From an uncultured Opitutia bacterium (GTDB taxonomy: Bacteria > Verrucomicrobiota > Verrucomicrobiia > Opitutales > Opitutaceae), in assembly GCA_903820035.1 (NCBI GenBank), contig CAIJFT010000204.1, positions 1 to 41,118 on the forward strand: a stretch of 41,118 bases of DNA, written 5' to 3'. Of this stretch, positions 2,814-23,144 are shown in pieces. Position numbers and translations under genes: made by a program. The notes under the pieces are model-generated. The model searched no databases, was not told the DNA's origin, and saw nothing but the letters and a program-made list of their open reading frames with translations. Positions within the stretch are counted from its first letter, which is position 1; each line of letters begins with the position of its first letter.

Positions 2814-3721
2814 GCGCCCCGGTGTGCCGCATCTGCGGCGCCGGCCAAGTCGCAGAGCGCGGTCGCAAGCGCGGTGCATTCATCCGCGAGGAATTCACGT
2901 TCCACCGCTGCGGCGCCTGCGGATTTCAGTTCGTCGAACCCTTCTCCGGCTTCGCGATCTACGACGATCGTTACTACCGCGGAGAAGGCCCCGACCCGTA
3001 CGTCGACTACGAAGCCGAATACCGCGACTACCGCCAGACGCACCGCCGCCACGAGTTCGCCGACATGGTGCGCCTCGCGGAGAATTTCCTGCGCCACCGC
3101 GAATCGGCGCCGGCCGGTACGACGCTTCGCTGGCTCGACTTCGGCTGCGGCGCCGGCGGGTTTTTGAAATTCTTGCGCGAGCGGGCGACCGTCGGCGGAC
3201 GCACCCTCGAACTCTCCGGCCACGACGTCGGGTCGTATGCCGACCTTTTGAAGCAAAAGGACGATTTCCGGATTCTCGACCTCGACGAGATTGGCCGCGA
3301 GCCCGCGGGAACCTACGACGTCATCAGCATGATCGAAGTCGTCGAGCACCTGCCCGACCCCGTGGCGGCCCTGACGCAGGTCGCGCGGCTGCTGAAGCCC
3401 GGCGGCCTGCTCCTGCTCACCACCGGCAACCTCGACAGCCCGGTCGCACGGCGCCGAGGCATCCATTATCGTTATTGCTCGCCGGAAATCCACGTCAGCC
3501 TTTTCGGGCCCCGCAGCCTCGCGCAGCTTTACGCCCGCGTCGGTCTGGTGCCTCATGGCGTCCGCTACGCCGGCGCCGTACAGTTTAAGGTCCTGAAAAC
3601 CCTGCGGCACCGTCCGTTCGCCGGCGCGCTGGCCAGCCTCGCCCTCCACCTCCCGCCCGTCGTATGGCTGATCGACCGGATGTACGGCGTGTCGGCGATG
3701 CCGTGCGCGGTGAAGGTGTAG
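2810..3721 (+). CDS. Class I SAM-dependent methyltransferase with N-terminal zinc ribbon
   Basis: This is a 303-residue protein. Two Cys pairs at the N-terminus (C6/C9 and C34/C37) make a zinc-ribbon-like domain seen in sugar and small-molecule methyltransferases of the Methyltransf_23 type. SAM-binding motif I is DFGCGAGG at 110-117. Later motifs are EVVEHLPDP and LLKPGGLLLLTT. The ATG at 2810 overlaps the previous TGA (ATGA), which fixes the start and implies translational coupling. The position among glycosyltransferases and sugar-nucleotide genes suggests methylation of a sugar or glycan, which is an inference; the substrate cannot be read from sequence. Confidence 0.85.
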   Translation: MSAPVCRICGAGQVAERGRKRGAFIREEFTFHRCGACGFQFVEPFSGFAIYDDRYYRGEGPDPYVDYEAEYRDYRQTHRRHEFADMVRLAENFLRHRESAPAGTTLRWLDFGCGAGGFLKFLRERATVGGRTLELSGHDVGSYADLLKQKDDFRILDLDEIGREPAGTYDVISMIEVVEHLPDPVAALTQVARLLKPGGLLLLTTGNLDSPVARRRGIHYRYCSPEIHVSLFGPRSLAQLYARVGLVPHGVRYAGAVQFKVLKTLRHRPFAGALASLALHLPPVVWLIDRMYGVSAMPCAVKV

Positions 3722-3764
3722 GGAGCGGAGTCCGCCTTTCCGCCGTCTTATTGTTCGTAGGAAA

Positions 3765-3847
3765 GTGCGCGCGCGCGCGCGGCTACCTCAGGAGCGGCGG
3801 TTTCCAACCGCCGCATGCGGTTGGAAGTGCTTGGGAAAGCGCCGCTC
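3765..3847. repeat. Alternating GC run plus cruciform palindromic repeat
   Basis: The spacer after the first methyltransferase holds an alternating purine/pyrimidine run at 3765-3780 (seven GC dinucleotides) and then a nested palindrome. The outer arms 3792-3805 and 3834-3847 match as inverted repeats in 13 of 14 positions. Inside is a 6-bp hairpin, 3806-3811 with 3817-3822 (AACCGC/GCGGTT). The form is that of a dispersed intergenic palindromic repeat. It is open in the frame of the downstream methyltransferase, which can mislead start calling. Confidence 0.6.
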
Positions 3848-3933
3848 TGGGAGCGCGCAAGCGCACTGGCCTATCCAACGGACCATCCACCCGCCCCCCT
3901 ACATTTTGCGCGACAACCTCCCCGCCCGGGCTT

Positions 3934-4869
3934 TTGCTCGACGGCTTGTCGCACCCGACCGCCAGCTCCACCCAACGTCTGCGCCTTCCGGCCTGCCCGC
4001 TGTGCGGCGGCAGCACGTTCCGCCCGGTGGTCACGGTCGAGTCGCATCCGGTCGTACGCTGCCGTAGCTGTGACCTGCAGTTGACGAATCCGCAGCCGAG
4101 CGACGCCGAACTCGCCGCCATCTACGGCCCCGATTATGTTTTGGCGGCCGACGACTCGCCGGCGCACGCGGTGATCGTCCGCTCGAAGCGCGCCACCGCC
4201 GACCATTACCTTGACCTGCTCGTGCACGCCGGCGCGCCCCAGGGCGCCAAGCTCCTGGAGATCGGCTGCGGCGCGGGCAACTTTCTGCTGCAGGCCACCC
4301 AGCGCGGCTACGACGTCACCGGCGTCGAATACTCACCCTACGCCTGCGCCCGCGCGCGGCAGACCCTCGGCGGCGTCGGCCGGGTCTTGCAGGGCGAGAT
4401 CGAAGTCGTCGCGGCCGAAATCGGCACCTACGACATCGTGGTCCTGTGCGACGTGATCGAACACGTACGTCAACCCGCCGACTTTCTGCGCAAGGTCCTT
4501 ACCGCCCTGCGCCCCGGCGGACTCCTCCTCGTCGTCACCCCGAGCACCGCCTCGTGGTCGGCGCAGGTCATGGGCCGGCGTTGGATGGAGCTGAAGCCCG
4601 AGCACCTGTTCTATTTTTCGCCCGCGACGCTTACCCGTCAGCTCAACCAAACGGGTTTTCAAGCCGTGGCCCTGCACCGCGGCACGAAGCTCCTCAGCCT
4701 CGATTACGTCACCGCTCACTTTGAGAAATATCCGGTCGCCGGTATCCGCGCGACGTTGCGCCTGCTGCGCGCGATCGTGCCGGCGGCATGGAGCCAGCGC
4801 CCCGTGCGCATCGTGGCGAGCGGCATCATCGCCCTCGCTCGCAAACCGGCCAACGCGGCCCGCCCATGA
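3934..4869 (+). CDS. Class I SAM-dependent methyltransferase, zinc-ribbon type
   Basis: From the chosen TTG the protein has 311 residues. It has Cys pairs at 21/24 and 43/46 (CPLC, CRSC), SAM motif I EIGCGAGN near 109-116, CDVIEHVRQP and LRPGGLLLVVTP, the same layout as the methyltransferase upstream. The frame stays open to an ATG at 3664, but that start would overlap the previous gene and translate the palindromic repeat, so it is unlikely. TTG at 3934 or 3946 lies just before the conserved region, although neither has a convincing ribosome binding site. The stop overlaps the ATG of the next gene. The role is probably methylation of a glycan or lipid-linked sugar. Confidence 0.8.
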   Translation: MLDGLSHPTASSTQRLRLPACPLCGGSTFRPVVTVESHPVVRCRSCDLQLTNPQPSDAELAAIYGPDYVLAADDSPAHAVIVRSKRATADHYLDLLVHAGAPQGAKLLEIGCGAGNFLLQATQRGYDVTGVEYSPYACARARQTLGGVGRVLQGEIEVVAAEIGTYDIVVLCDVIEHVRQPADFLRKVLTALRPGGLLLVVTPSTASWSAQVMGRRWMELKPEHLFYFSPATLTRQLNQTGFQAVALHRGTKLLSLDYVTAHFEKYPVAGIRATLRLLRAIVPAAWSQRPVRIVASGIIALARKPANAARP

Positions 4870-5615
4870 GCGCCACCGCCCCCGCGCCCGACCGCGTGCT
4901 CTCCGTGGTGGTGCCGATCTACAACGAACGGCAAACGGTCAAGGAAGCGCTCGACGCCATCCTCGCGAAGTCGATTCCCGGTTGGCACCTTGAGATCATC
5001 ATGGTCGAGAGCAACTCGACCGACGGCACCCGCGACATCGTCCGGACCTTCGCGTCACATCCGCGGGTAAAGCTCGTGCTCGAGGACCGGGCACGCGGCA
5101 AGGGGCACGCGGTCCGCGCCGGTTTCACCCATGCGACCGGCGAGGTCATCCTCATTCAGGACGCCGATCTCGAGTACGATCTCAACGACTACGACGTCCT
5201 CCTCGAGCCGATCGCGGCGGGCCGACAGACGTTCGTACTCGGCTCGCGCCACAGCGGCGGCAGCTGGGCCATCCGGAAGTTTTCCGATCAACCGCTGCAG
5301 GCGCTCATCCTCAACCTCGCGCACTGGGGCTTCACCCTCCTGATCAATGTATCGCTCGGCGTGTGGCTGCGTGACCCGTTCACCATGTACAAGGTGTTCC
5401 GGCGCGACTGCATCAAGGACCTGACCTTCGAGTGCAACCGCTTCGACTTCGACTGGGAGCTCCTGATCAAACTCATCCGTAAGGGCCACCGCCCGATCGA
5501 GATTCCGATCAGCTACGAGTCGCGCTCGTTCAAGCAGGGGAAGAAAATTTCCATGTTCCGCGACCCCGTGACCTGGATCTGGGCGCTGGTGAAGTTTCGG
5601 TTCAAGCGTCTCTAA
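4866..5615 (+). CDS. Family 2 glycosyltransferase, DPM1/polyprenyl-phosphate type
   Basis: This 249-residue GT-A protein starts at an ATG overlapping the preceding stop. It shows VVVPIYNE (14-21), ESNSTDGT, a GKGHAVRAGF segment, and the nucleotide-sugar/metal site QDADLEYD (98-105), followed by LGSRH. This is the pattern of dolichyl- or polyprenyl-phosphate sugar synthases (DPM1-like), which move a sugar from NDP or GDP onto a polyprenyl phosphate at the inner face of the membrane. There are no C-terminal membrane helices, unlike GtrB/ArnC proteins. It lies 7 bases before the large membrane proteins, so it may make their lipid-linked donor (inference). Confidence 0.85.
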   Translation: MSATAPAPDRVLSVVVPIYNERQTVKEALDAILAKSIPGWHLEIIMVESNSTDGTRDIVRTFASHPRVKLVLEDRARGKGHAVRAGFTHATGEVILIQDADLEYDLNDYDVLLEPIAAGRQTFVLGSRHSGGSWAIRKFSDQPLQALILNLAHWGFTLLINVSLGVWLRDPFTMYKVFRRDCIKDLTFECNRFDFDWELLIKLIRKGHRPIEIPISYESRSFKQGKKISMFRDPVTWIWALVKFRFKRL

Positions 5616-5622
5616 CGGCGCC

Positions 5623-8600
5623 GTGTTCCCGACCAAACGCCAGTTGCTGCTCGGGCTCGCGGTCTGTGCGGTCCTCCTGCTGGCCAGTCTCGGCTCCCAC
5701 CGTCTCACCCCCGCGCACACCGGTGTCGCCGTCTCGATCGAAGGCTCCTTCACTCGCGACGGCCAGTTCCCCGGCGAACCCTACCCCGATGCCGTCGGCG
5801 TCCGCGCCTGGGGTTCGTGGTCGGGCTCCGACGACAATCTGGGCAAGCTGACGATCGGGCCGTTCCCCGCCCCGCGGCTGCTGCGCTTTGGCCTCGGCGG
5901 TTACCCCGACCACGCGGGCAACACGCTGCACGTCGAACTCGTCGGCACGAAGGAACAGCGGGAAATCAAATGGGCCGCGGTCGGCGAACGCTGGCAAACC
6001 GTCGACGTCACCCTCGACCCCGCGTGGATCGGCCGCCCGGTCCAACTCGTCGCCGTCGACCAGGCGAAGGGCGGCGGCGGCTGGCTTTCGCTCACCGAGC
6101 CGATCCGCGGCGGCCGCGGCGACGGCAACCACGCCCTGCTCGCGTCGCTCACCGCCTGGGCCGTCAACGGCCTCCTCCTCGCCCTGATCTACGGCGCCGC
6201 GCTGCGCTGGCTGCGCGAAAGGCCCACGCTCGCACCGCCCTGGGTCCCGCTCGGCGCCGGCGCGATCGTCGCCCTCGCCGGCTACGCCGTCTTCTGGATC
6301 TATTTTCTAAATTCCCTCGCCGGCGTCATCGCGTCGTGGGCCGTCCTCGGCGTAGCCGCTGCGGTCATTTGGCGCGCCCCGGGCCGGCACGACGATACGC
6401 GCCCCGCGGATCGCGAGACCCGCACGGTCCTCACGCTGACCGCGATCATCGGCGCATTCTACCTCGCGGTGCTGCACCTCTTCCCGTCGTCACATGATTT
6501 CTACACGATCGCCGGGAACCGCTTCCGCGAGAGTCTGCCGGGCGACAACTACCTCTCGCATGTCTTCGCCGAGCGACTGTTCTCCGCCCAGCCGCTGAAA
6601 AATCCGGTCGACGAGTGGTTGTCGAGCGATCGGCCGCCCCTGCAGACCGGCTGGCAGCTGTTGACCTGGTCGCCGGGCAAGGTGCTGCAACTCGACCGTC
6701 GCAGCGTCGGCGGCACCGCCGCCATGTGGTTCCAGCTCCTCTGGGTCGCGGGCGCGTACGGCCTGCTGCGGACGTTTCAAATCGCCCCGCGCCGGGCCGC
6801 CGGCTGGGTCGCGACGTTGGCCCTTACCGGTTTTTTCCTGCAAAATACGACCTTCACGTGGCCCAAGCTCGCGTCGGGTTCGTTCGGCCTCGGCGCCTTC
6901 GCGCTGCTCTTTCTCGCCGGCGCCCGCGGACAACCACGCACCCATGCCATCTGGGCCGCGGTCTTCGGCGCCCTCGCCTGGCTGGCGCACGGCGGCGTGG
7001 CGTTTTCGTTCCTCGGCCTCCTGCCGCTCCTCGCCTGGCGCTGGTTCCGCGGCGAACTGCGCGCCTGGCCGCTCGCCGCCGCGGCCTTCGCGCTGCTCGC
7101 GGCCCCGTGGCTCGCGTATCAAAAGTTCTACGACCCGCCCGGCACCAAGCTGCTCAAGTGGCACCTTGCCGGCGTAACGCAGACCGATCCGCGCGGCACG
7201 TGGGAAACCATCCGCGACAGTTACGCCCAGGTCGGCGCGAAAACCGCGTGGGCCAACAAGGTCTCCAATTTGCACGGCCAGACCCTCGGCGAGTGGCGCC
7301 AGCTGGTTGACCTCTCCTCCGCGACCGCCACGGAGCGGCGCACCGAGGAATTTTTCCGGACCGGCCGGGCGCTGACCTGGTGGCTGCCCGTCGCCGCCCT
7401 CGCCCTCGTCGTGGTGCGTCGCCGCGCGCCGAAGCCCGTCCACGACCTCGCCCTGCTCGGCGGCTGGCTCGCCCTCACCGTCGTGATCTGGTGCCTGCTG
7501 CTGTTTGGTACGTACCAGGCCGTCATCCACCACGGTTCGTACGCGATGATGCTCGGGTTGTTTGTCTTCTTCACGGTGCTGATCGAACGCAGCGGGCGCG
7601 GCTGGCTCCCGGTCGTCGCGCTGCTGCAGGCGGTCACCCTCGGCACCACGTGGATCGTCGGCAACGGCACGCTCAACGGCGAACCCGCCGGCTGGTCCGC
7701 GGTTGCCGCGGGCGGCGTCGCCCTCGCGTGGTACCTCGGCCGCGCGCTGCGTGCCGCGCCCGCGGCGGCGTCGGAAGCCCAGGGCATAGCTGCCTCCGGA
7801 CCGGTCGATCGCTGGCGGGACGCCTTCCTCGGCTGGTGGCGCGAACCGCGCCTCAACCTCTGGGTGTGGCTGGCGATCGCCGGGTGCTTTGTGCTGCGCA
7901 AGCCGCACGCGCTGCACACGCCGCAGCTCTGGGCGGAGGACGGCAGCATTTTTCTCATGCAGGCCGACATGCACGGCCTCGAGGCGTTCACGCTCCCGTA
8001 CATGGGCTACCTGCACACGCTGCCGCGCCTGATTGCATGGACCGGATCCAACTTGCTCGACCCGGCTTGGTGGCCGGCGTTCTACAACGGGGTCGCCGTC
8101 CTGATCTGGATCGCGGCGGCCGCGCGCTTCGTCTCCCCCCGCTTCGACTTCCCCGGTAAACCGTGGCTCGCCCTCTCGTTGGTCGCCGTCCCGCACATGG
8201 GCGAGGTCTTCTTCAACGTGACCAACCTCCAGTGGGTCACCGCGCTGGTCCTTGTCCAACAGGCGATGATCGCGCCGCCAACCAACGCCCGTGAACGTTG
8301 GGGCGATTTCGCGATCGTCGTGCTCATTACGCTCACCGGTCCCTTCGGCATCGCGTTCCTCCCGCTCTTCGCCTGGCGCTGGTGGCGAAGCCGCGACCGC
8401 GACCCGACAATTCTCCTGCTCGCAATGGGCGCCTGCGCCGCGTTGCAGGCCTGGTTCGTCGTGCGCACCGGTCCGCGGTTTGAATTCCAAGGCGCGCCCT
8501 GGCATGTCGCGCCGATCATCGAGGTCCTCGGTCGCCGTCTAGTGCTCTGGCCCCTGCTCGGCCGCGAAATCGCCTACAGCCTTTCGCCGCTGGTTGTGAT

Positions 8601-9036
8601 GCTCGCCGGCGGCACGTTCTTGGCCGCCGCTTTCGGCTGGATGTTACGGCCGCATCCGCGGCGCCTCCTCCGGGCGCAGGTGGTCGCAGCGCTGGTCCTC
8701 ATCACACTCGCCGGCGTGTATCGGACGCGACCCGACGCCTGGGCCGGCGACAACCTCGATTTTGCGGACCGTTACTTCTACATTCCCCGCGTGCTCCTCG
8801 CCTGGCTGCTGATCTGGGAGTTCGACACCGTGCCGCGCGCCATCGCCAACCTCGCCCGTGTCTTCTGCCTCGCCGTGCTCCTCGTCCATATTCGCGAGTA
8901 CACGTTGCCCGCGCCCCAAGACTACGCCTGGGCCACGCATGTGGAACCGATCCGGCGGGGCGTGCCGGCGAAGATTCCAACGCTGCCTGAAGGCTGGACC
9001 ATGGAGTACAGCGGCCGGCCCGAAGGACGCCGATGA
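5623..9036 (+). CDS. 1137-residue two-module polytopic membrane protein, possible GT-C type
   Basis: The start is GTG, 7 bases after the previous stop. Residues 7-24 form a membrane helix. Residues ~40-165 are an extracytoplasmic beta-rich domain (GSFTRDG, WGSWSG, GPFPAP, GGYP). A multi-helix block with LPGDN, LSSDRPPLQ (333-341) and FTWPK (411-415) runs to ~710, then a Pro/Ala linker. A second block (740-1137) carries WAEDGSIF (770-777), GYLHTLPRLIAW and NVTNLQWVTA. Block 1 matches the C-terminal half of the 1495-residue protein downstream. Block 2 matches the whole of the next protein. Acidic residues in loops after early helices resemble GT-C glycosyltransferases that use polyprenyl-phosphate sugars, but I cannot assign a named family. 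The gene overlaps the next by 4 bases. Confidence 0.7.
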   Translation: MFPTKRQLLLGLAVCAVLLLASLGSHRLTPAHTGVAVSIEGSFTRDGQFPGEPYPDAVGVRAWGSWSGSDDNLGKLTIGPFPAPRLLRFGLGGYPDHAGNTLHVELVGTKEQREIKWAAVGERWQTVDVTLDPAWIGRPVQLVAVDQAKGGGGWLSLTEPIRGGRGDGNHALLASLTAWAVNGLLLALIYGAALRWLRERPTLAPPWVPLGAGAIVALAGYAVFWIYFLNSLAGVIASWAVLGVAAAVIWRAPGRHDDTRPADRETRTVLTLTAIIGAFYLAVLHLFPSSHDFYTIAGNRFRESLPGDNYLSHVFAERLFSAQPLKNPVDEWLSSDRPPLQTGWQLLTWSPGKVLQLDRRSVGGTAAMWFQLLWVAGAYGLLRTFQIAPRRAAGWVATLALTGFFLQNTTFTWPKLASGSFGLGAFALLFLAGARGQPRTHAIWAAVFGALAWLAHGGVAFSFLGLLPLLAWRWFRGELRAWPLAAAAFALLAAPWLAYQKFYDPPGTKLLKWHLAGVTQTDPRGTWETIRDSYAQVGAKTAWANKVSNLHGQTLGEWRQLVDLSSATATERRTEEFFRTGRALTWWLPVAALALVVVRRRAPKPVHDLALLGGWLALTVVIWCLLLFGTYQAVIHHGSYAMMLGLFVFFTVLIERSGRGWLPVVALLQAVTLGTTWIVGNGTLNGEPAGWSAVAAGGVALAWYLGRALRAAPAAASEAQGIAASGPVDRWRDAFLGWWREPRLNLWVWLAIAGCFVLRKPHALHTPQLWAEDGSIFLMQADMHGLEAFTLPYMGYLHTLPRLIAWTGSNLLDPAWWPAFYNGVAVLIWIAAAARFVSPRFDFPGKPWLALSLVAVPHMGEVFFNVTNLQWVTALVLVQQAMIAPPTNARERWGDFAIVVLITLTGPFGIAFLPLFAWRWWRSRDRDPTILLLAMGACAALQAWFVVRTGPRFEFQGAPWHVAPIIEVLGRRLVLWPLLGREIAYSLSPLVVMLAGGTFLAAAFGWMLRPHPRRLLRAQVVAALVLITLAGVYRTRPDAWAGDNLDFADRYFYIPRVLLAWLLIWEFDTVPRAIANLARVFCLAVLLVHIREYTLPAPQDYAWATHVEPIRRGVPAKIPTLPEGWTMEYSGRPEGRR

Positions 9037-10226
9037 ACCGCAAGGCCTGGCTGCTCGTGCTGGTCGGCGCCGCGCTGCTCGTGCTGCGCAAACCGTGGGC
9101 GCTGCACACGCCGCAACTCTGGGCGGAGGACGGCAGCATCTTTCTCACCCAGGACGAGCAGATGGGCGTGCACGCCTGGCTCGAGCCTTACAACGGTTAC
9201 CTGCACCTCCTGCCACGCCTGATCGCTTGGACCGCGAGTCATACCGCGGATCCCGCGTGGTGGCCGGCAATCTACAACGGCCTCGCCTTCGCCCTCACCG
9301 TCGGCGTGTTCATCCGGATCGCGTCTGCGCGCGTCGAATTGCCCGCGAAACCCGGCCTCGCCCTCGCGCTCGTGCTGGTCGTCGGCTCGGGCGAGACGCT
9401 GCTCAACGTGACCAACCTCCAGTGGGTCACCGCGTTCTTCCTCGTCGTCCACCTCTTCACCCGCCGGCCGGAAAATACCCGCGAGCGTCTCGGTGACCTC
9501 GCGGTGCTCACCGTCGTCGGCCTCAACGGTCCCTTCGCCGTGCTGTTGCTGCCGTTCTTCGCCTGGCGCGCGTGGCGGGAGAAACACCTCGACGCCTGGC
9601 TCGCGCTCGCGGCGGTTGGCGCGTGTGCGTTGACGCAGGCCACCTTCCTTTCGCGCACCAGCGGGCTCACCTTGCACGAAGCCGCGGAACCGTTTCACCC
9701 GCTCGGGCTGCTCGCTACGCTCGGCAGTCGGCTCGTGGTCTGGCCGTTCTTCGGTCCCGCCGCGGTCCGCAACTGGCCGGCGTGGGCCGACGCCCTCGTC
9801 GGGGCGGTCGTCATCGGCGGATTGCTCGCCCGCGCGTGGCGGGCAGACACCGATCGTCCGGCCCGCACCACGATCGCAACGCTCTTCGTGCTCATCACGC
9901 TCGCCAGCGTGTACCGCGCCCGGGCCGACACGTGGAATCACACCGACATGGCGAACGGCGACCGCTACTTCTTCATTCCGCGGGTACTGCTGACCTGGCT
10001 CGTGATTTGGGAGTGCCGCGCCCAGCCGCGGGCCGCCACCTGGCTCGCCCGCCTCGCGGTCGGCGCCGCGCTGGCGTGGCACGCACCGCACTTCCGCTTG
10101 CCCGCGCCGCCCGACTACCACTGGGCGCAGCACTGCGACCCGATCCGCCGCGGCACGCCGGCGAACATCTCCACGTTGCCCGAGGGCTGGTGGATCGAAT
10201 ATCCCGGCCGCGCCGCCCCGCCGTGA
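7890..10226 (+). repeat. Degenerate ~1.19-kb tandem duplication
   Basis: The 3' part of the 1137-residue gene (about 7890-9036) and the whole next gene (about 9080-10226) align at a constant offset of 1190 bases. The GTGCTGCGCA and GCTGCACACG segments near 7891-7920 recur at 9081-9110. A 32-base identical block at 8213-8244 recurs at 9403-9434. Protein similarity runs end to end (LRKP.ALHTPQLWAEDG through IRRG.PA.I.TLPEGW). This is a gene-internal tandem duplication in which only the first copy is fused to the upstream module. Confidence 0.8.
9033..10226 (+). CDS. 397-residue polytopic membrane protein, stand-alone WAEDGSIF module
   Basis: This is the stand-alone version of the C-terminal block of the previous protein. 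It shows LVLRKPWALHTPQ, WAEDGSIF near residue 32, GYLHLLPRLIAW, NVTNLQWVTA and the ending TLPEGWWIEYPGR, with many hydrophobic helices between. The ED pair in the loop after the first helix is where GT-C glycosyltransferases keep catalytic acids, so a lipid-linked sugar transferase is possible. This is inference, and it could also be a flippase-like or scaffold protein. The ATG overlaps the previous stop (ATGA), and its own TGA overlaps the next GTG start, so the three membrane genes are probably translated together. Confidence 0.7.
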   Translation: MNRKAWLLVLVGAALLVLRKPWALHTPQLWAEDGSIFLTQDEQMGVHAWLEPYNGYLHLLPRLIAWTASHTADPAWWPAIYNGLAFALTVGVFIRIASARVELPAKPGLALALVLVVGSGETLLNVTNLQWVTAFFLVVHLFTRRPENTRERLGDLAVLTVVGLNGPFAVLLLPFFAWRAWREKHLDAWLALAAVGACALTQATFLSRTSGLTLHEAAEPFHPLGLLATLGSRLVVWPFFGPAAVRNWPAWADALVGAVVIGGLLARAWRADTDRPARTTIATLFVLITLASVYRARADTWNHTDMANGDRYFFIPRVLLTWLVIWECRAQPRAATWLARLAVGAALAWHAPHFRLPAPPDYHWAQHCDPIRRGTPANISTLPEGWWIEYPGRAAPP

Positions 10227-13200
10227 AGCCGTCGATCCTCTTCCGCACGCTCTGGCTGCTCGGCGGTCTCGCCCTGCTCCTCGGGTTCGGCCGCGAACGG
10301 ATTCTGGGTTGGATTCCCGCGGCCCGCGAACTGCCGCGTTTCGACGGTGCCACGGGTCGCGCCTGGATCAGCGGCGGCTTTGACCTCGGTGGCCGGGAAC
10401 ACAAACCCGAGGCAGGCCTGCTGCCGGCGGGTATCCAAAACTCCACTTCCTGGGTTGGCGGCGACGAGTGGCAGGGTCGCGCCGAGTCCGCGTGGTTCAA
10501 GGCCAACCGCCGCGTGATCAGCGTCGGCGTGAAAGGTTACCCGCAGGATCACGATTGCCGGCTGTGGGCCGAGTTCCGGGCCGCCGACGGTGCGATCACG
10601 CGCATCACTTGCCCGCTCCTGAATCCGCGCGAGGCCTGGGCCGTTTGGGAAATCACCACCCCTGGCGGCGCGGTCGCACTGCGCGTGGTCGGCGAGGATC
10701 ACTCGACTAAGCATGCGGGCTGGATCGCGTTCTCCCACCCGTTCCGCGCCTGGCCGGCCAGCCTCGCCGCGGTGTTCCAAAGCCTGCAACTGCTCACGGC
10801 GGCGGCGCTGGTGCTCACCCTCGTGTGGGGTCCGGGGTTGCTGTGGCACGATCGCGTCGTTTCGCCGTCCGGGCGGGCCGTGCTGCTGGTCGGGCTCGGA
10901 CCGCTCCTGCTCTCGGCCCTGGGCGTCAGTCTCTGGGGCGCGGGATTTTTCGTCTCACCGCAGGCGGCCGGTTTTGTCTTGGTCGGCGCGTGGTGGTTGA
11001 CGCTCGGCGCGACGGCCCAACGCCGCGGTTTCGATTTCGAGGTCAGCCGGGCGTTTCGCCGCGTCCTCGGCATCAGCGCGCTGATCGTCGCCGCCGTCGT
11101 CGCAAAATCGGCATACTCCGTCGGTCCGCAGGGCGAACTCTTCCGCGGCACGGTGTCGCGCAACTTCGAGATGTCGGACCGCATCGACAGCCGCTTCAGC
11201 TTCTACACCGTGCAGGCCGCCGCCCACCAATGGGGCCCGGGGTCACCGAAAACCGAACGCTTCTTCGCGCCGTGGACCTTCTTCAGCCGCGGGCCGCTGG
11301 CCGGGCTCGCGAGCATTCCCGTGGTGCTGGCGACGAACGGCCGGCCCTCGACGGAGCTGCCGGAAAACCCGTGGAGCCCGTACGACCCCACCGGCTTCGC
11401 CGCCTACCGCGTGACGATGATCGTCCTCGCAAGCACGGTGATCGTCGCGCTGTTCCTGATCCTCCTGCCACTGGTCGGGGAAGGCTGGGCCGCTCTCGCC
11501 GCCGGCTTGCTCGCCTTGACCCCGTTCGGCGTGCACGAGGTGATGTTCACGTGGCCGAAATGGGTGGCGACGACCTGGATTGTGCTCGGCTTCGGGCTCG
11601 CGCACGCGCGCCGGCCGCTCGGTGCCGGTCTCGCCCTCGGCATCGGGTTCCTGTTTCACCCGCTCGCGTTGCTCTGGGCACCGTGGATCGGCCTCTGGTC
11701 GGCCGGCCGCAGCGAAACGCGGACCGTGAAGCCGCTCGTGACGACACTCGTGCGTTTCGGCGCAGGCGCACTCGCGCTCGTCTTACCGTGGATGGTCATC
11801 GGCGCGCTCATGCCGCACCTGCCGACCACCGTCCTCGCCGGGCAAGGCGGCTTCTTGCGCTACTGGACGATGGCCGACTGGCACTACGCCACATGGACAA
11901 CCTGGTGGCACACCCGGTGGCTGAATTTCGCGAACACGTTTCTGCCGCTGCACCTGTATTTTTCCACCGACAGCTTCAATCATCCCAAATTCGGCTCCGC
12001 CTACGAGGAGTCCGGCCGGCTGGTGAAGTTCGCCGAGGTCTGGTGGAACACGCTGCCGTTCGCCGCGGGCCTCGGTCTCTGGGCGCTCAGTGGCCTCACC
12101 CTCGTGCGGGCGGCGCGCGGCTTCGCAGGGGCCGCGCTGCTCCTCGTGATCGGGCCCGCCCTTTTCATCGTCGCGTACTGGGGCATGGATCCGCTCGGCC
12201 TCATGCGCGAATGCGGTCATCCGCTGCTCGTCACGTTGATCGGCCTGACCGTGGTCGTCGCCGCGCACCACGGCGGCCGGCTCGAGCGCCTCCTTCGTCA
12301 CCGCGCCACGCCCTGGCTGCAACTGCCGGAAACCTGGCTGATGCTTTGGCTGACCACGCTGCTCAATCCCGTCCCGTGGGCCGGTCTCTCCGCGCACCTC
12401 GATCCGGTCTACCTGACGTTGAATACCACCGCCCTGCTCGCCGCGGCTTGGGTGATCGCACGCAACCGCACCCTGCTGCCTCCCTCTCCCGCTTCGCAGG
12501 CTCCAGTTGAGTCCAGCTGGCACCATGTCACGCAACGGTGGCCGGGCCTCTGCAACCGACGCGCCGGCTTGGTCGGCGGCGCGGTTTGCCTCTGCCTCGC
12601 GTTGCAGATCGCCGTGGTGATTACACGGCAGCTCACTCCCGCATTCGCCGACCTGCCGGCTAAAACCGCGGGATCGTTTCAACGCGACGGCGAGTTTCCC
12701 GGCGAACCACTGGCCGGCGCCCACGGGCTGCGCACCTGGGGCTCGTGGGGCGGCGATGACCTCCACATGGGACGCCTCGAACTCGGTCCCTTCCCCGCGC
12801 CATCGACCTTGCGCTTCGCCGCCGGCGGTTACCCGGCGCGCGCCGGCAACCAGCTCTACGTTGAACGCACCGACCCAAAGGCCCGCCTCCCCGTCGCAAC
12901 CGGCCCCGACATCGGGGAGCGGTGGCGCATGCTGGAATTTGTTCCACCCGCGGATTGGATCGGCCGGCCCGTCGTGCTCGTCGCCGACGACGCGGCCACG
13001 CAAATCGGCGGCTGGCTCGCGGTCTCGGAACCCGTGCGCAGCGGCCCCGGCGGCGGCAATGCGGAACTCTGCTCCACGCTCGCCGGCTGGGCGCTGAACG
13101 GCCTGCTCTACGGCCTGCTGTGGTTCGCCGCCCTGCGCTGGCTGCATCGCCGGCGTCTCGTCACGGATCCGTGGTTACCGCTCGCGGCCCTCGCGGCGGT

Positions 13201-14710
13201 GGCCGCGGCCGGCTACCTCACGTTCTTCGCCTTCTTCGCCAGCGCACTCCTTGGGAAACTCACCGCCAGCGTCCTGCTCCTGTTGGGTTTCGCCGGCACG
13301 CTTCGCCCCGGATCGACCGACGAAGCCTTGCCCGCCGACGCCCTCGCCGCGCCCCGACTACTTGTGGTGGTCGGCATCTTCTACCTCGCGCTGCTGCACC
13401 TTTTCCCTTCGTCGCTGGAGTTTCACGCCCTCGCGGCGAACCGCTTCAATCCGCTCCCCGGCGACAACTCGCTCCCGCACAATACGGCCCGCGAGCTGTT
13501 TCGCGGGGCACCGCTGCGCACTCCGGGGGCCGACTGGTTGTCGAGCGACCGTCCGCCGTTGCAGGCGGGTTGGCTGCTGCTCGCGAAGCCAGTGACGATG
13601 ACGACCGGCCTCGACGAACGCACGACCGACGGCACGGCCGCGGTCTGGTTGCAGTTGGGCTGGATTTTCGCCGCCTACGGTCTGCTCCGGCAACTCGGCT
13701 TGCCGAGACCGCGTGCGCTCGCGTGGACCACGTTGCTCGCGGCCTCCGGCTTCTTCCTGCTAAACTCGGTCTACACCTGGCCGAAACTCAGCGCCGCCGC
13801 CTTCGTGATCGGCGCCTACGCCGTGTGGTTCGGCGGTACTTCCGCCCCGCTGAGCCGGCGTCACGCGCTCCTCGGCGCCGCCCTTGCCGCCCTCGCCTGG
13901 CTATCGCACGGCGGGGTGGCGTTCTCGTTCCTCGCGCTGGCGCCGTGGGTTGTCTGGCGCGCCCTTCGCGGCGAAGGCCGCCACTGGCTCGCCGCGGCGG
14001 GCGTGTTCCTCTTGTTCGCCGTTCCCTGGCTGGCTTACCAAAAGTACTACGACCCGCCGGCCAACCGGCTGCTCAAGTGGCACCTCGGCGGACAGATCGA
14101 GAAGGACGCCCGCGGAACCTGGGAAACCATCCGGGACGGCTACCGCGCGCTGCCCGCCGGCGAGATCGTCGCGCGGCGCGTCACCAACCTCAGGTATCAG
14201 GTCGGCGGTGACTGGAGCGCCTGGCGTGACTTTGCCGTGGATCGCGCGCCGTTCCGGCGATCGGAGGAATTCTTCCGCTCCGGCCGCGCCCTGACCTGGT
14301 GGCTGCTCGGCGCCATCGCACTGCCGCTCGCCCTCCTCCGCCGCCGACCCGCCGTGCCCTGGGTGGAGCACCGCTGCCTCGCGGCGTGGGTCGTCGCCAC
14401 CACGCTCGTTTGGTGCCTGCTCATGTTTCTGCCCGAAGCAGCGCTCATTCACCAGGGTTCATACGCGGCGCTGCTCGGTGCCTTCGTGTTGCTCGCCGCC
14501 TGGAGCGAACTCGCCGGTAGCTGGACCTTGGCGGTGGTCGCAGCCGTGCAACTCGCCGCCTTCGTCACGACCTGGCTCTCCGCGACCCCGGTGCTGCGCG
14601 ACCCACTCAATCCCGTCGCCGCCGGCGTGATGGTGGCGGCGGCGATCGGGGCATTTGCCCTCGCCTTTCGTGAGCAGCAAGTGGTCGCCACCGAAAAAAA
14701 CCCATCGTAG
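10223..14710 (+). CDS. 1495-residue internally duplicated polytopic membrane protein
   Basis: The GTG at 10223 overlaps the previous TGA and fixes the start; a longer open frame upstream is a shadow of the preceding gene. The protein is two divergent copies of one module. In copy 1 (1 to ~790) a helix is followed by a beta-rich region (40-175, GGFDLGG, GYPQDHDCRLWAEF) and then a membrane block with FTWPK near 442. In copy 2 (~795-1495) helix, beta domain (GSFQRDG, WGSWGG, GPFPAP, GGYP from ~816), LSSDRPPLQ, and a membrane block with YTWPK near 1184. Copy 2 closely matches residues 1-710 of the 1137-residue protein. The function is unknown. A GT-C-like role in building a surface glycan is the best guess from architecture and neighbours. 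Confidence 0.7.
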   Translation: MKPSILFRTLWLLGGLALLLGFGRERILGWIPAARELPRFDGATGRAWISGGFDLGGREHKPEAGLLPAGIQNSTSWVGGDEWQGRAESAWFKANRRVISVGVKGYPQDHDCRLWAEFRAADGAITRITCPLLNPREAWAVWEITTPGGAVALRVVGEDHSTKHAGWIAFSHPFRAWPASLAAVFQSLQLLTAAALVLTLVWGPGLLWHDRVVSPSGRAVLLVGLGPLLLSALGVSLWGAGFFVSPQAAGFVLVGAWWLTLGATAQRRGFDFEVSRAFRRVLGISALIVAAVVAKSAYSVGPQGELFRGTVSRNFEMSDRIDSRFSFYTVQAAAHQWGPGSPKTERFFAPWTFFSRGPLAGLASIPVVLATNGRPSTELPENPWSPYDPTGFAAYRVTMIVLASTVIVALFLILLPLVGEGWAALAAGLLALTPFGVHEVMFTWPKWVATTWIVLGFGLAHARRPLGAGLALGIGFLFHPLALLWAPWIGLWSAGRSETRTVKPLVTTLVRFGAGALALVLPWMVIGALMPHLPTTVLAGQGGFLRYWTMADWHYATWTTWWHTRWLNFANTFLPLHLYFSTDSFNHPKFGSAYEESGRLVKFAEVWWNTLPFAAGLGLWALSGLTLVRAARGFAGAALLLVIGPALFIVAYWGMDPLGLMRECGHPLLVTLIGLTVVVAAHHGGRLERLLRHRATPWLQLPETWLMLWLTTLLNPVPWAGLSAHLDPVYLTLNTTALLAAAWVIARNRTLLPPSPASQAPVESSWHHVTQRWPGLCNRRAGLVGGAVCLCLALQIAVVITRQLTPAFADLPAKTAGSFQRDGEFPGEPLAGAHGLRTWGSWGGDDLHMGRLELGPFPAPSTLRFAAGGYPARAGNQLYVERTDPKARLPVATGPDIGERWRMLEFVPPADWIGRPVVLVADDAATQIGGWLAVSEPVRSGPGGGNAELCSTLAGWALNGLLYGLLWFAALRWLHRRRLVTDPWLPLAALAAVAAAGYLTFFAFFASALLGKLTASVLLLLGFAGTLRPGSTDEALPADALAAPRLLVVVGIFYLALLHLFPSSLEFHALAANRFNPLPGDNSLPHNTARELFRGAPLRTPGADWLSSDRPPLQAGWLLLAKPVTMTTGLDERTTDGTAAVWLQLGWIFAAYGLLRQLGLPRPRALAWTTLLAASGFFLLNSVYTWPKLSAAAFVIGAYAVWFGGTSAPLSRRHALLGAALAALAWLSHGGVAFSFLALAPWVVWRALRGEGRHWLAAAGVFLLFAVPWLAYQKYYDPPANRLLKWHLGGQIEKDARGTWETIRDGYRALPAGEIVARRVTNLRYQVGGDWSAWRDFAVDRAPFRRSEEFFRSGRALTWWLLGAIALPLALLRRRPAVPWVEHRCLAAWVVATTLVWCLLMFLPEAALIHQGSYAALLGAFVLLAAWSELAGSWTLAVVAAVQLAAFVTTWLSATPVLRDPLNPVAAGVMVAAAIGAFALAFREQQVVATEKNPS

Positions 14711-14852: not shown

Positions 14853-15914
14853 ATGTCCAAAACGCTTCTCGTCACCGGTTCGTCGGGCCTGATCGGCTCC
14901 GAAGTTTGCACGTATTTCGCGCGCGAACTCGGCTACACCGTCCACGGCGTCGACAACAACCAGCGCGCCGTGTTCTTCGGCCCGCAGGGTGATACGCGCT
15001 GGAACCAGCAGCGGCTGGCCGCCGAGCTGAAGGGCTTCGTCCACCACGAGGTCGACATCCGCGACCGCGCCGGCGTCCTGGCCCTCGTGAAGCAGGTGAA
15101 GCCGCACGTCATCGTGCACACCGCGGCGCAACCGAGCCACGACCGCGCGGCGGCGATCCCGTTCGACGATTTCGACACCAACGCCGTCGGCACGCTCAAC
15201 CTCCTCGAGGCCGCGCGCCAGGCGACACCGGAGTCGCCGTTCGTGCACATGAGCACGAATAAAGTTTACGGCGATGCGCCCAACCGCATCCCGCTGCAGG
15301 AGCTGGCGACCCGCTGGGACTACGCCGACCCGGCGTACGCCCATGGCATCGCGGAGACGTTCACGATCGACCAGTCGAAACACTCGCTGTTCGGTGCCTC
15401 CAAGGTGGCGGCCGACGTGATGGTCCAGGAGTACGGCCGCTACTTCAACCTGCCGACCTGCGCCCTGCGCGGCGGCTGCCTGACCGGCCCGAACCACACC
15501 GGCGTCGAGTTGCACGGTTTCCTCAGCTACCTCGTGAAATGCAACCTCGAGGGTCGCGAGTACAAGATTTTCGGGTACAAGGGAAAACAGGTCCGCGACA
15601 ACATCCACTCGCTCGACGTCGCCCGCTTCATGGCGGCGTTTGTCGCCAGCCCGCGCGCCGGCGAAGTGTACAACCTCGGCGGCGGCAAGGCCAACTCCTG
15701 CTCCGTGCTGGAGGCCTTCAAGATCGCCGAGCAGTTCTCCGGCAAACCGCAGGTCTACACCTATGTCGACCAGGCGCGGGCCGGCGACCACATGTGCTAC
15801 TACAGCGACCTGCGGAAGATGCGGGCGCACTTCCCGGGCTGGGATCTCACCCAGTCGCTGGAGGAAACCATCCGCCAGATCGTCGAATCCTGGCGGAAGC
15901 GAAATAATTCCTGA
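14853..15914 (+). CDS. NAD-dependent SDR epimerase, CDP-paratose 2-epimerase-like
   Basis: This 353-residue extended SDR protein has the NAD-binding motif TGSSGLIG at the N-terminus, then [34 protein letters not shown] and GGCLTGPNH. The NNQRAVFFG segment is shared with CDP-paratose/tyvelose 2-epimerase-like proteins of surface polysaccharide loci. The usual catalytic YxxxK reads FGASK: residue 180 is Phe (TTC at 15390-15392), with Lys at 184. I recall this Phe being common in this subgroup, so it is probably not a sequencing error, but it means the reaction should not be assumed to be the classical one. The likely role is modification of a nucleotide-linked deoxysugar in the cytoplasm. Confidence 0.75.
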
Positions 15915-15987: not shown

Positions 15988-16587
15988 ATGCTGCTCCGCC
16001 TCGTTCTCCTCCTCGCCGTCGCCGCCCCCGTCCTGCGGGCGACCTCCGTGGTGGCGCCGACGTTCCCCGAACTCGTGGCCGAGGCGGAAACGATCTTCCG
16101 GGGCCGCGTGACGGCAGTGACCGCCCGTCGGGTCGAGCGCCCCGACGCCCCGGGCGCCCTGATCAAGACCTACGTTACGTTTGCCGTTGAACGGGTCCTC
16201 AAAGGCCGGGCCGGGCCGACTCTCACGCTCGAATTCCTCGGCGGCACCGTCGGGGAAGACCGCCTGGAAGTCAGCGGTATGCCGGTCTTCGGGCGCGGCG
16301 GACACGATCTGGTGTTCGTTCAAAAGAACGGCGTGCAGTTCTGCCCGCTCGTCGCGATGGGCCACGGCCGCTACCGCGTTGAACGCGATGCGACCGGCTC
16401 GCGCGACATCATCGCGCGGGACAACGGCGCGCCGCTCACCGATCCCGGGGAGATCGCGCTGCCCCTCACCGCCGTGCCGGCACCCTTGCGGGCCGCCGCC
16501 GCCACGCGCGCCCTCTCGGTCGATGCCTTCGAAACGCACATCGTGGCCGCGCTGGACAAACTCGGGCTCAAGCCCGTCCAGGATTGA
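15988..16587 (+). CDS. Exported hypothetical protein coupled to the matrixin
   Basis: This 199-residue protein starts with a signal peptide (LLRLVLLLAVAAPVLRA). The chosen ATG places that peptide at the very N-terminus. The mature part is beta-rich: FPELVAEAETIFRGRV, TYVTFAVERVLKG, then GHDLVFVQKNG and GHGRYRVERD, ending in a hydrophilic helix. I do not recognise a named family. The stop TGA overlaps the TTG start of the metalloprotease gene (TTGA), so the two are probably made in fixed ratio. A role as partner, inhibitor or chaperone of that protease is an inference from coupling alone. Confidence 0.65.
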   Translation: MLLRLVLLLAVAAPVLRATSVVAPTFPELVAEAETIFRGRVTAVTARRVERPDAPGALIKTYVTFAVERVLKGRAGPTLTLEFLGGTVGEDRLEVSGMPVFGRGGHDLVFVQKNGVQFCPLVAMGHGRYRVERDATGSRDIIARDNGAPLTDPGEIALPLTAVPAPLRAAAATRALSVDAFETHIVAALDKLGLKPVQD

Positions 16588-18350
16588 AAATACCGCGCCT
16601 GAAATTTCCGGGGGCGCTGGCCGGCGTGGTGGCCGCGATCATCGGCCTCGCGGCCCCTCTCCCCGCGTACGACCTGATCGGTTCGTCGTGGCCCGACGGC
16701 AACATCGTGATGCAGCTCCAACTCGGCCAGCCGTCCTCCGCGCTCGTCGACGGCGACCCGGATTGGGCGACCGTCGCCGAGTCCGCGCTCAACGAGTGGA
16801 ACGGGCAGATCGCTCGCTCGAAATTCACCGTGGTCCGCGACTCGACGGCGGCGGTCGCCCGCGGCAACCGGATCAACAACGTCGTTTTCCGCAGCGACAT
16901 CTACGGCCAGGCCTTCGACTCGCGCACGCTCGCCGTGACGCTTGGTTTCACGAGCACCACCACGGCCCGGGCGACGGAGAAGGACGTCATCTTCAATTCA
17001 AACCGCACCTGGAATTCCTACCGCGGGGCCCTGCGGAGCACATCCACCGATTTCCGCCGCGTCGCCCTGCATGAGTTCGGCCACGTCCTCGGTCTCGACC
17101 ACCCCGATCAGGCCACGCCCGTCCAGTTCGTCGATGCGGTGATGAACAGCACCGTCAGCAATGTGGAAACGCTGCGACCGGACGACATCGCCGGCGCCCA
17201 CGCGCTCTACGACACCGGCGGAGTTGCCGCCTCCCCCGTCATCTTAGCCCAACCCCAGAGCCGCACCGTGCGCGTCGGCGAAAGCTACACGTTCAGCGTC
17301 ACCGTCAACGGCAACGGCCCCTTCACCTACGCGTGGGCCTTCCGCGCCGCCGGCTCGACCACCTTGGAATCCTTCCCGCTCGCCACCGGCCCGAGCTACA
17401 CGATCGGGGCCGTCGAAACGGCGGACGCCGGAACGTACACGGTCACGGTGCGCAGCGCCCTCGGCAATCTCGTCAGCAATGCAGCCACGCTCACGGTGAC
17501 GCCCGTGACCTCGAGCCCCGAGACCAGATTGGCCAACATCTCGACCCGCGGGATCGTGGGCGGCGGCAACAGCGTCCTGATTGCCGGTATCGTCGTGGGC
17601 GGTACAACGCCCAAGAATGTCTTCGTGCGCGCGGCCGGTCCGGCCCTCGCCGCCTTCGGGGTCACCGGTGCCCTCGCCGATCCGACGTTGTCGATCGTCG
17701 ACCAAACCGGCGTGACCGTCGCCCAAAACGACAACTGGGAAAGCGACGGCCGCGCGGCCGCGAACTCCGCGGCGGCGACTCGACTCGGTGCATTTCAATT
17801 TCGCGCCGGCAGCCGTGATGCGGCCGTCCTCCTCACGTTGCCTCCCGGCAGCTATACGGCCGTCGTCAGCGGCGTCGGCGCCGCCACGGGCGTCGCTTTG
17901 GTGGAAGTGTACGACGCGGATCCCGACGCCGCGGTCGCCCGCACCCGCCGCCTCGTGAACATCGCCACCCGCGGCCAGGTGAGCGGCGGTGACAACGACC
18001 TCATCGCCGGCCTCGTCGTCTCCGGGCCCGGCCCGCACACCTACCTGATCCGCGCGGTGGGACCCACGCTGGCGACCGCGCCGTTCAACCTGACGGGCGT
18101 ATTGAACGATCCCTTCCTGCAACTCTACCAAGGCGAAACGCTGCTGCGGGAAAACGACGACTGGGACACCACCCGCGCCGCCCAACCGGCCCTCCGCGAC
18201 GCCGCGACGAAGGTCGGCGCCTTCCCGCTGCAGGTGCGGCGCGACTCCGCGATGATCGTCACGCTTGATCCCGGCAACTACACGGCGAAGGTGAGCGGAT
18301 TCGAGGGTTCCACGGGCGTCGCCCTGGTGGAGATCTACGAGCTTCCCTAG
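16584..18350 (+). CDS. Secreted matrixin (M10) metalloprotease with Ig-like domain and two C-terminal repeats
   Basis: This is a 588-residue protein with an N-terminal signal segment. The zinc site HEFGHVLGLDH at 163-173 is the M10 HExxHxxGxxH motif, and the Met-turn is MNS at 187-189. Residues ~216-308 form an Ig-like domain (PQSRTVRVGESYTFSV, GTYTVTV). Two copies of a ~130-residue repeat follow from ~315 and ~456 (RLxNIxTRG, RAxGPxLA, NDxWxx, GxFxL, PGxYTAxVSG, TGVALVExY), a repeat typical of secreted verrucomicrobial proteins. The TTG start overlaps the stop of the preceding gene, and no better start is seen before the signal segment. It probably hydrolyses protein outside the cell or in the periplasm. 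Confidence 0.85.
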   Translation: MKIPRLKFPGALAGVVAAIIGLAAPLPAYDLIGSSWPDGNIVMQLQLGQPSSALVDGDPDWATVAESALNEWNGQIARSKFTVVRDSTAAVARGNRINNVVFRSDIYGQAFDSRTLAVTLGFTSTTTARATEKDVIFNSNRTWNSYRGALRSTSTDFRRVALHEFGHVLGLDHPDQATPVQFVDAVMNSTVSNVETLRPDDIAGAHALYDTGGVAASPVILAQPQSRTVRVGESYTFSVTVNGNGPFTYAWAFRAAGSTTLESFPLATGPSYTIGAVETADAGTYTVTVRSALGNLVSNAATLTVTPVTSSPETRLANISTRGIVGGGNSVLIAGIVVGGTTPKNVFVRAAGPALAAFGVTGALADPTLSIVDQTGVTVAQNDNWESDGRAAANSAAATRLGAFQFRAGSRDAAVLLTLPPGSYTAVVSGVGAATGVALVEVYDADPDAAVARTRRLVNIATRGQVSGGDNDLIAGLVVSGPGPHTYLIRAVGPTLATAPFNLTGVLNDPFLQLYQGETLLRENDDWDTTRAAQPALRDAATKVGAFPLQVRRDSAMIVTLDPGNYTAKVSGFEGSTGVALVEIYELP

Positions 18351-22881: not shown

Positions 22882-23144
22882 CACACGCCGTTTGGGAGCA
22901 GTCTTATCGCTCGTTGGTAATCGTGGAGTCACGACAACGCGCTCCGTGCGGGGGACTGCGTCGTAATGCCTGTCGAAGTACAGATCGTAACAGAGAGGCA
23001 ACGCACACGGCAACGTACGGCTCCCGGCCAAGGAAATGCAAGGCCCTCGCCGCCCGCTCTTGCGAAGCGACGCAAACCAAGAGCATCGCTCGAAAAGTTG
23101 AAAACAACTTCCAATGCCAGTGGCTTTCGCTATCTATCCGCCCG
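22882..23144. promoter_or_regulatory. Divergent intergenic region with small hairpins
   Basis: This 263-base spacer separates the minus-strand membrane gene from the plus-strand epimerase gene and must hold promoters for both. Visible structure is a perfect hairpin AAGTTG-AAAA-CAACTT at 23095-23110, 34 bases before the epimerase ATG, and GCTCTTG/CAAGAGC arms at 23056-23062 and 23078-23084. A TATCTA at 23131-23136 could be a -10, but no well-spaced -35 is seen. The hairpin could be an operator or an RNA structure. Confidence 0.35.

Follow-up and report, generated by a model that had tools for sequence, protein, structure and literature searches.

What do three adjacent genes for large membrane proteins do between a sugar transferase gene and an epimerase gene in an uncultured Opitutaceae bacterium, and of what parts are their products made? 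The window analyzed here is a complete contig of 41,118 bases from a 6.05 Mb draft genome in 469 contigs, and all three genes are situated on its plus strand: A (5623-9036; 1137 aa), in which a module M1 is fused to an alpha-type module M2, B (9033-10226; 397 aa), a single beta-type M2 module, and C (10223-14710; 1495 aa), in which a module M1b is fused to a second M1. A and B, as well as B and C, overlap by 4 bp; C starts with the GTG at 10223, the mechanically delimited ORF beginning upstream at 9572. On the left, the stop of a GT2 glycosyltransferase gene (4866-5615, plus strand; PF00535, E 4e-28) lies 7 bp before the start of A, and on the right the border is formed by an NAD-dependent epimerase/dehydratase gene (14853-15914, plus strand; PF01370, E 8e-43). 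The space between these two genes is here referred to as the slot.

Upstream of GT2, also on the plus strand, are two genes for SAM-dependent methyltransferases, one (2810-3721; Methyltransf_23, E 1e-28) overlapping the preceding gene by ATGA and the other (3664-4869; Methyltransf_23, E 4e-27) with an uncertain real start. A large polytopic membrane protein (15-2813, plus strand) is cut by the contig edge; its counterparts are about 1000-1080 aa long in many relatives. Genes for rmlA and rmlB, above their cut-offs, were found further along from A, B and C, and together with the neighboring methyltransferases they agree with a surface-glycan locus. Adjoining the glycan genes is a Matrixin (Peptidase_M10) with an Ig-like domain (16584-18350, plus strand), and a 696-aa membrane-type protein with no Pfam match (20941-23031, minus strand) is homologous to an 803-aa protein found near M2 in another locus (L046, E 6e-43).

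A first-pass annotation had proposed that A, B and C are built from two shuffled and duplicated module families, and pairwise and profile comparisons confirmed both families. M1 in A (residues 4-658) aligns with the C-terminal half of C (778-1432) at 48% identity (E 1e-167), and M2 in A (759-1132) recurs alone as B at 49% identity (E 2e-109). By pairwise BLAST the N-terminal half of C is related to M1 weakly (ectodomain, E 6e-5); that C carries M1 twice, as had been claimed, follows from the profile-profile match of M1 with the family of this half, i.e. M1b, at probability 99.1 (E 4.8e-19, 682 columns). The proposed order along the DNA (M1-M2, M2', M1''-M1') is borne out by the located modules, with M2-alpha of A at 7837-9033, M1b, a separate gene in relatives, at 10223-12472, and M1' of C at 12590-14692, all on the plus strand, and the F/Y-TWPK motif is present as FTWPK in A and as FTWPK and YTWPK in C. 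No sequence kinship between M1 and M2 was detectable by profile-profile comparison (probability 1.5), and no further copies of the modules were found in the source genome.

No family in Pfam or NCBIfam matched A, B or C above its cut-off. The relatives named in the family alignment of A are Opitutaceae, Opitutae or Verrucomicrobia assemblies, and 0 of its 40 rows matched a Pfam family at E<=0.01; nine other module, partner or neighbor proteins likewise had no Pfam match above cut-off, and sequence searches of solved structures (PDB) gave no match at E<=1. Rows below the Pfam thresholds include, in the case of B, Gaa1 (E 0.1) along with TMEM220 (E 0.34) and, in the case of the M1 of locus L045, DUF6057 (E 0.0065). 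Of two more distant M1 relatives, one (L084, E 4.8e-9) matches PMT_2 under the cut-off (E 2e-4), over a span roughly covering its own RPPL and WTK motifs, and the other, L087, which scores lower against the M1 profile (E 3.5e-4), is above the PMT_2 cut-off.

Structure prediction added another layer to this. The AlphaFold2 model of A, from the 40-row alignment, had a mean pLDDT of 88 and a pTM of 0.78, and that of M1b, from nine rows, is of middling confidence (pLDDT 67, pTM 0.69). With Foldseek alone, no match for A reached E<=1e-3, and of the three rows at the top of its list two were spurious whole-length matches; the folds were called by VIA-align over Foldseek's own list, and families absent from the VIA-align lists do not count as excluded. 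The predicted membrane part of M1 (6127-7758, plus strand; residues 256-684 of A were compared) matched ArnT (5f15; Z 16.7, rmsd 4.3, 307 residues aligned), ALG12 (9s6t; Z 16.6), PglB (Z 13.4), EmbA-EmbB (Z 8.9) and PimE (Z 8.7). For the M1b model, GT-C enzymes or complexes take all of the best 13 rows (Z 12.7-15.1), with ALG12 at Z 15.1 and the archaeal oligosaccharyltransferase 3waj at Z 15.0, and ArnT reaches Z 12.5. VIA-align warns that a Z below about 13 between helical bundles may reflect no more than a similar layout, which concerns the lower rows for both models. The stretch of A that precedes the M1 membrane part (residues 26-168; 5698-6126, plus strand) is predicted to form a beta-sandwich ectodomain, of which residues 26-165 resemble the C-terminal, carbohydrate-binding domain of EmbC (3pty; Z 11.2, rmsd 3.0, 137 residues aligned, 21% identity) more than they do many carbohydrate-binding modules; the M1b ectodomain matches the same domain at Z 12.6. 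The models thus support a GT-C glycosyltransferase fold with a preceding EmbC-like beta-sandwich for M1 and M1b. The M2 part (residues 740-1137 of the A model) was barely covered by the structure comparison rows returned, and M2 is a separate, smaller module that would most likely be a GT-C enzyme too.

Conserved residues are consistent with these assignments. Invariant in all 33 M1 rows are D308, W332, S335-D336-R337-P338-P339-L340, W413-P414-K415, H456, H514, W623 and H636; in A, the D308 codon is at 6544, SSDRPPL (334-340) at 6622-6642 and WPK (413-415) at 6859-6867, on the plus strand. By the predicted fold, which also gives the side of the membrane, D308 and D336 would lie in the first extracytoplasmic loop. 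The corresponding invariant set in 52 out of 52 M2 rows is A771-E772-D773 (7933-7941), G795-Y796, R802, N868 and Y1051, and the A-E-D, which comes near the module start behind the first predicted helices, would supply the acidic residues of a first loop on a presumed outer side. If the M1-M2 linker is cytoplasmic and this acidic loop outside, an excess of basic residues is expected in the linker, and K+R indeed exceeded D+E in 16 of the 18 M1-M2 rows of the 40-row alignment, several of them near-copies. M1b keeps the D308, R337, P339, L340, WPK and H456 columns (four out of four M1b rows in a 16-row alignment), and likewise that of H636. Its counterpart of SDRPPL is SRGPL, and because the second acidic residue, D336, is missing, M1b may, judged from its sequence, be altered or inactive.

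The gene bordering A on the left is likely to encode a polyprenyl-phosphate sugar synthase, going by its sequence matches. Its best NCBIfam matches, none of which reaches its cut-off, include dolichyl- and undecaprenyl-phosphate sugar transferases, with AglJ (E 5e-25), a dolichyl-phosphate hexose transferase (E 5e-14) and ArnC-type models within the best four rows. For the DPM1-like synthase that the earlier description put alongside the three proteins, support extends as far as membership in the GT2 family (PF00535), the closer NCBIfam assignments remaining below cut-off. The 'YfhO-like' label of the gene that had been placed there as well (15-2813) has no backing in Pfam or NCBIfam, of which no family exceeded its cut-off for this gene; hmmscan returned no YfhO, and PF09586 had no match in the source genome at E<=10, the same model matching six out of 14 control genomes, three of them above cut-off. 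Homologs of this large membrane protein, with 36-61% identity, occur in many loci. No GtrA flippase gene is linked to the locus, the only GtrA-family match of the genome being on another contig; in some known systems the flippase is, by gene number, distant from its GT2 (Table 1 of PMC8035078). Fusions were also observed on the donor side, i.e. a methyltransferase and GT2 in one ORF (L036, 13534-15243, in G043; L110, 5706-7364, in G017, the latter by eye) and the large membrane protein and GT2 in one ORF (L104, 1-2931, in G086).

Several known enzymes share parts of this organization. ArnT, which tops the fold matches for the membrane part of M1 at 11% identity, has acidic residues in its first loop, as is predicted for M1, but it is a single module whose N-terminus lacks the EmbC-like ectodomain. 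The mycobacterial arabinosyltransferases EmbA, EmbB, EmbC and AftA combine a GT-C membrane part with the same beta-sandwich as M1 and M1b (3pty, Z 11.2-12.6; 7bvf, Z 8.9; 8if8, Z 12.5, against the predicted models). The sandwich is a C-terminal domain in EmbC, whereas it is N-terminal of the GT-C part in M1 and M1b, and here M2 can carry it too, as can a further membrane family at its C-terminal end; the Emb and AftA sequence models (GT53/GT85) matched none of the 40 alignment rows (Pfam, E<=0.01). The eukaryotic lumenal ALG12 and ALG9 and the archaeal and bacterial oligosaccharyltransferases AglB and PglB, which use polyprenyl-linked donors, have a GT-C fold like that predicted for M1 and M1b (Z 13.4-16.6), and they are separate single-module enzymes. 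GT-C enzymes are not known to comprise more than a single module, and in the titles and abstract beginnings of the papers listed by literature searches neither a chain with two GT-C modules nor these Opitutaceae genes are described. Multi-component transmembrane glycosylation systems such as CsbB-GtcA-YfhO, GtrABC and Scc consist of a GT2, a flippase and a GT-C; some of the GT-Cs bear carbohydrate-binding modules, and their mutual sequence similarity is low (PMC8035078). Like these, the A/B/C locus has a GT2 synthase adjoining predicted GT-C modules; unlike these, it has several modules in one chain, a set that varies in one slot, and no linked GtrA flippase as in the three-component systems.

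The variation in module sets was examined as ORFs over the scanned loci, counts in which some contigs are duplicated and fragments are included. M2 alone was the most common form (42 ORFs), followed by M1-M2 (22, of which 18 distinct), M1 alone (15) and M1b alone (13), and less common forms were M1-tail (3), M1b-M1 (2), M1b-ectodomain-M2 (2) and tail alone (1). In the M2 tree, the alpha type comprises 24 rows including A (support 91) and the beta type 17 rows including B (99, starred), some more divergent rows falling into neither, and the two types are old paralogs maintained side by side. M2-alpha is fused to M1 of two separate M1 clades, one of which (ten rows; 99, starred) lacks the ectodomain. 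Constraining the M2 partners of these ten short M1 rows to a single clade was rejected (AU p 0.006), as was forcing together the six M1 sequences whose M2 partners form one clade (AU p 3e-65), the groups in both cases having been chosen after the trees were seen; the M1 and M2 trees are thus in conflict, and module partners were exchanged. With two contig-end rows excluded from the labels (L067_4523 and L074_3), the fused or unfused state requires five changes on the M2 tree and four on the M1 tree. The architectures, the conflicting trees and the occurrence of the ectodomain on several membrane families bear out the earlier idea of shuffled modules. Free shuffling of all parts is rejected, as the alpha (support 91) and beta (starred) types of M2 remain apart.

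The ectodomain profile also matches L070 and L075 at their M2-beta fusions, that of L070 being among its ten seeds. The same ectodomain further makes up the C-terminal end of one more membrane family, characterized by WDQWDAE and HNEHR and situated near the same locus, the members of which are homologous to one another: L032 (14720-16606; iE 9e-11), L041 (12200-14101; 2.7e-5) and, weakly, L043 (10455-12308; 0.002). A fourth membrane module, the 'tail' of about 450 aa in which GDDWDL and PFAENFVPLFK occur, follows M1 in the same chain in L054 (6074-9871), L070 (7612-11073) and L075 (4382-7843); profile comparison detected no relation of the tail to either M1 or M2, and the two tails scanned against Pfam matched no family. 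There are signs of decay or sequencing error in module genes split into several frames (L041, 9405-10398; L044, 5460-6918; L077, 6056-8429).

A survey of 100 family genomes, the source genome included, found the epimerase in 73 (E<=1e-100), mostly at 82-91% identity, and GT2 in 31 (E<=1e-60). Modules lie between the two genes in 11 of these 31 (G000, G023, G025, G026, G030, G031, G054, G066, G067, G081 and G092), and M2 alone occupies the slot in G025, G031 and G092. In one more genome the modules run from GT2 to the contig end (G043), and in another M2 is beside GT2 with the epimerase on a different contig (G038). The slot is empty, with the flanks 19-78 bp apart, in eight (G016, G017, G022, G028, G060, G062, G069 and G086); a homolog of the large membrane protein is near GT2 in six of these eight loci, and G028 has an M2 gene ~1.2 kb upstream of GT2 on the opposite strand. 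Two genomes have 1.7-2.0 kb of other sequence without a module (G074 and G094), four have a rearranged order or strand (G006, G015, G040 and G071), and in the last four the epimerase is 11 kb off (G003), 1 Mb off (G055) or on another contig (G029 and G093). GT2 is enriched in module-bearing genomes (14/25 as against 17/75 without modules; Fisher p 0.003), although 11 of the 25 have no GT2 match at E<=1e-60. On a GT2 tree of 43 rows the filled state needs six changes, at least three of them forced by starred branches; loci collected by their modules are filled by construction. Across 288 genomes of the phylum, with the best three or six candidates per genome scored, at least ten match M1 (the same family accounts for eight, several of them weak) and at least seven match M2 (three in the same family).

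Taken together, we consider it probable that A, B and C amount to five membrane glycosyltransferase modules that transfer a lipid sugar loaded by GT2 to a shared extracytoplasmic acceptor. GT2 would load sugar from a nucleotide sugar onto polyprenyl phosphate at the cytoplasmic side, and an unlinked flippase, perhaps the lone GtrA-family gene elsewhere in the genome, would turn the lipid-sugar over. Outside, M1, M1b and probably M2 would transfer the lipid-borne sugar to a shared glycan acceptor held by the EmbC-like ectodomains, so that different module sets in the slot might give different glycans. The scheme follows that of multi-component transmembrane glycosylation (PMC8035078). Catalysis by each module, the sugar, the donor lipid, the flippase, the acceptor, the order and the M2 fold are what we infer in this scheme. 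The suggestion of lipid-linked-sugar transferases in the first-pass annotation is thereby upheld for M1 and M1b, by predicted fold and GT2 linkage, and extended to M2 by inference only; the multi-enzyme glycan assembly line that it also raised would be compatible with the data.

How the modules would divide the work can be read in more than one way. A sequential assembly line, in which modules add one sugar each in turn to what the preceding module made, in the manner of the lumenal ALG mannosyltransferases, so that the length and sequence of the glycan would depend on how many modules there are and how they are ordered, may be tentatively entertained, as the order M1-M2alpha, M2beta, M1b is common to L053, L054, L068, L072 and the window, L070 and L075 share M1-tail, M2alpha, ecto-M2beta, M1b, the old M2 paralogs are kept adjacent, and the sequential enzymes ALG12 and ALG9 are among the nearest folds. 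The order differs, however, in L036 (beta before alpha), L038 (M2, M2, M1) and L076 (M1b, M1), and since the number of modules varies from one to six (tail counted) and the slot is empty in eight out of 31 genomes, a fixed chain is unnecessary. That same variation between conserved flanks, and the exchanged partners, would fit independent decorations, each module adding a side-branch to a polymer made elsewhere from a serotype-like slot, much as in gtr-type or teichoic-acid systems. One GT2 may serve two GT-Cs, as described for GttA with GtlB and GttB (PMC8035078), and the SccN product of S. mutans is proposed to be used by SccM and an unknown transferase (PMC11754754). We hold this to be a serious possibility, slightly short of an even chance, although it does not require the fusion of modules into one chain.

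Alternatively, M2 could be no transferase at all and instead act as a flippase, a polymerase, a ligase or a partner of M1 that holds the acceptor, an option suggested by the lack of a linked GtrA flippase at the locus, the lack of detectable sequence kinship to M1, the structure rows that barely cover M2, and the speculation in a review that small GT-Cs may need an acceptor partner protein (PMC8035078). We find it rather unlikely, given the A-E-D near the module start in 52 out of 52 rows and the three genomes in which M2 is alone in the slot. Nor is it credible, save at a very small chance, that the fusions are assembly or frameshift artifacts of separate genes. M1b-M1 fusion does occur only in C and L055, and in the latter the M1b part is interrupted by a frame break; M1-tail fusions (three) and ecto-M2 fusions (two) nevertheless exist, and for M1-M2 a frameshift artifact is ruled out by the 18 distinct fusion sequences from several assemblies.

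There are hints that the modules form an exchangeable kit for surface-sugar decoration. A bolder and distinctly doubtful reading is that Opitutaceae possess modular GT-C megasynthases with several membrane active sites and exchangeable acceptor-binding ectodomains, the list of modules in the slot being a sugar code; if true, the megasynthase modules would be a cassette flanked by a donor synthase on one side and an epimerase on the other, and the list would read out the number and kind of added sugars. Acceptor choice by GT-Cs has been attributed, as speculation in a review, to extracellular binding domains or partner proteins (PMC8035078). The same ectodomain on three membrane families and the swapped M1 partners of one M2 clade offer natural chimeras for tests of acceptor choice, and the slot, empty in some relatives, would allow the modules present to be related to the glycans made.

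Lastly, modules and other membrane proteins were also observed in related positions. A divergent M1 (L045, 8844-10658, in G090) and a divergent M2 (L050, 8485-9729, in G072) each adjoin a gene for CtaG, involved in caa3 oxidase assembly, and L045 additionally has COX1, COX3 and COX4 genes; this cytochrome oxidase neighborhood, which speaks against the scheme proposed above, is perhaps a second insertion place for modules. The slot of G074 is filled by a different membrane protein family (L112, 7085-8764), which has no Pfam match above cut-off and a homolog of which is found in G086 directly past the epimerase (L104, 4034-6631).
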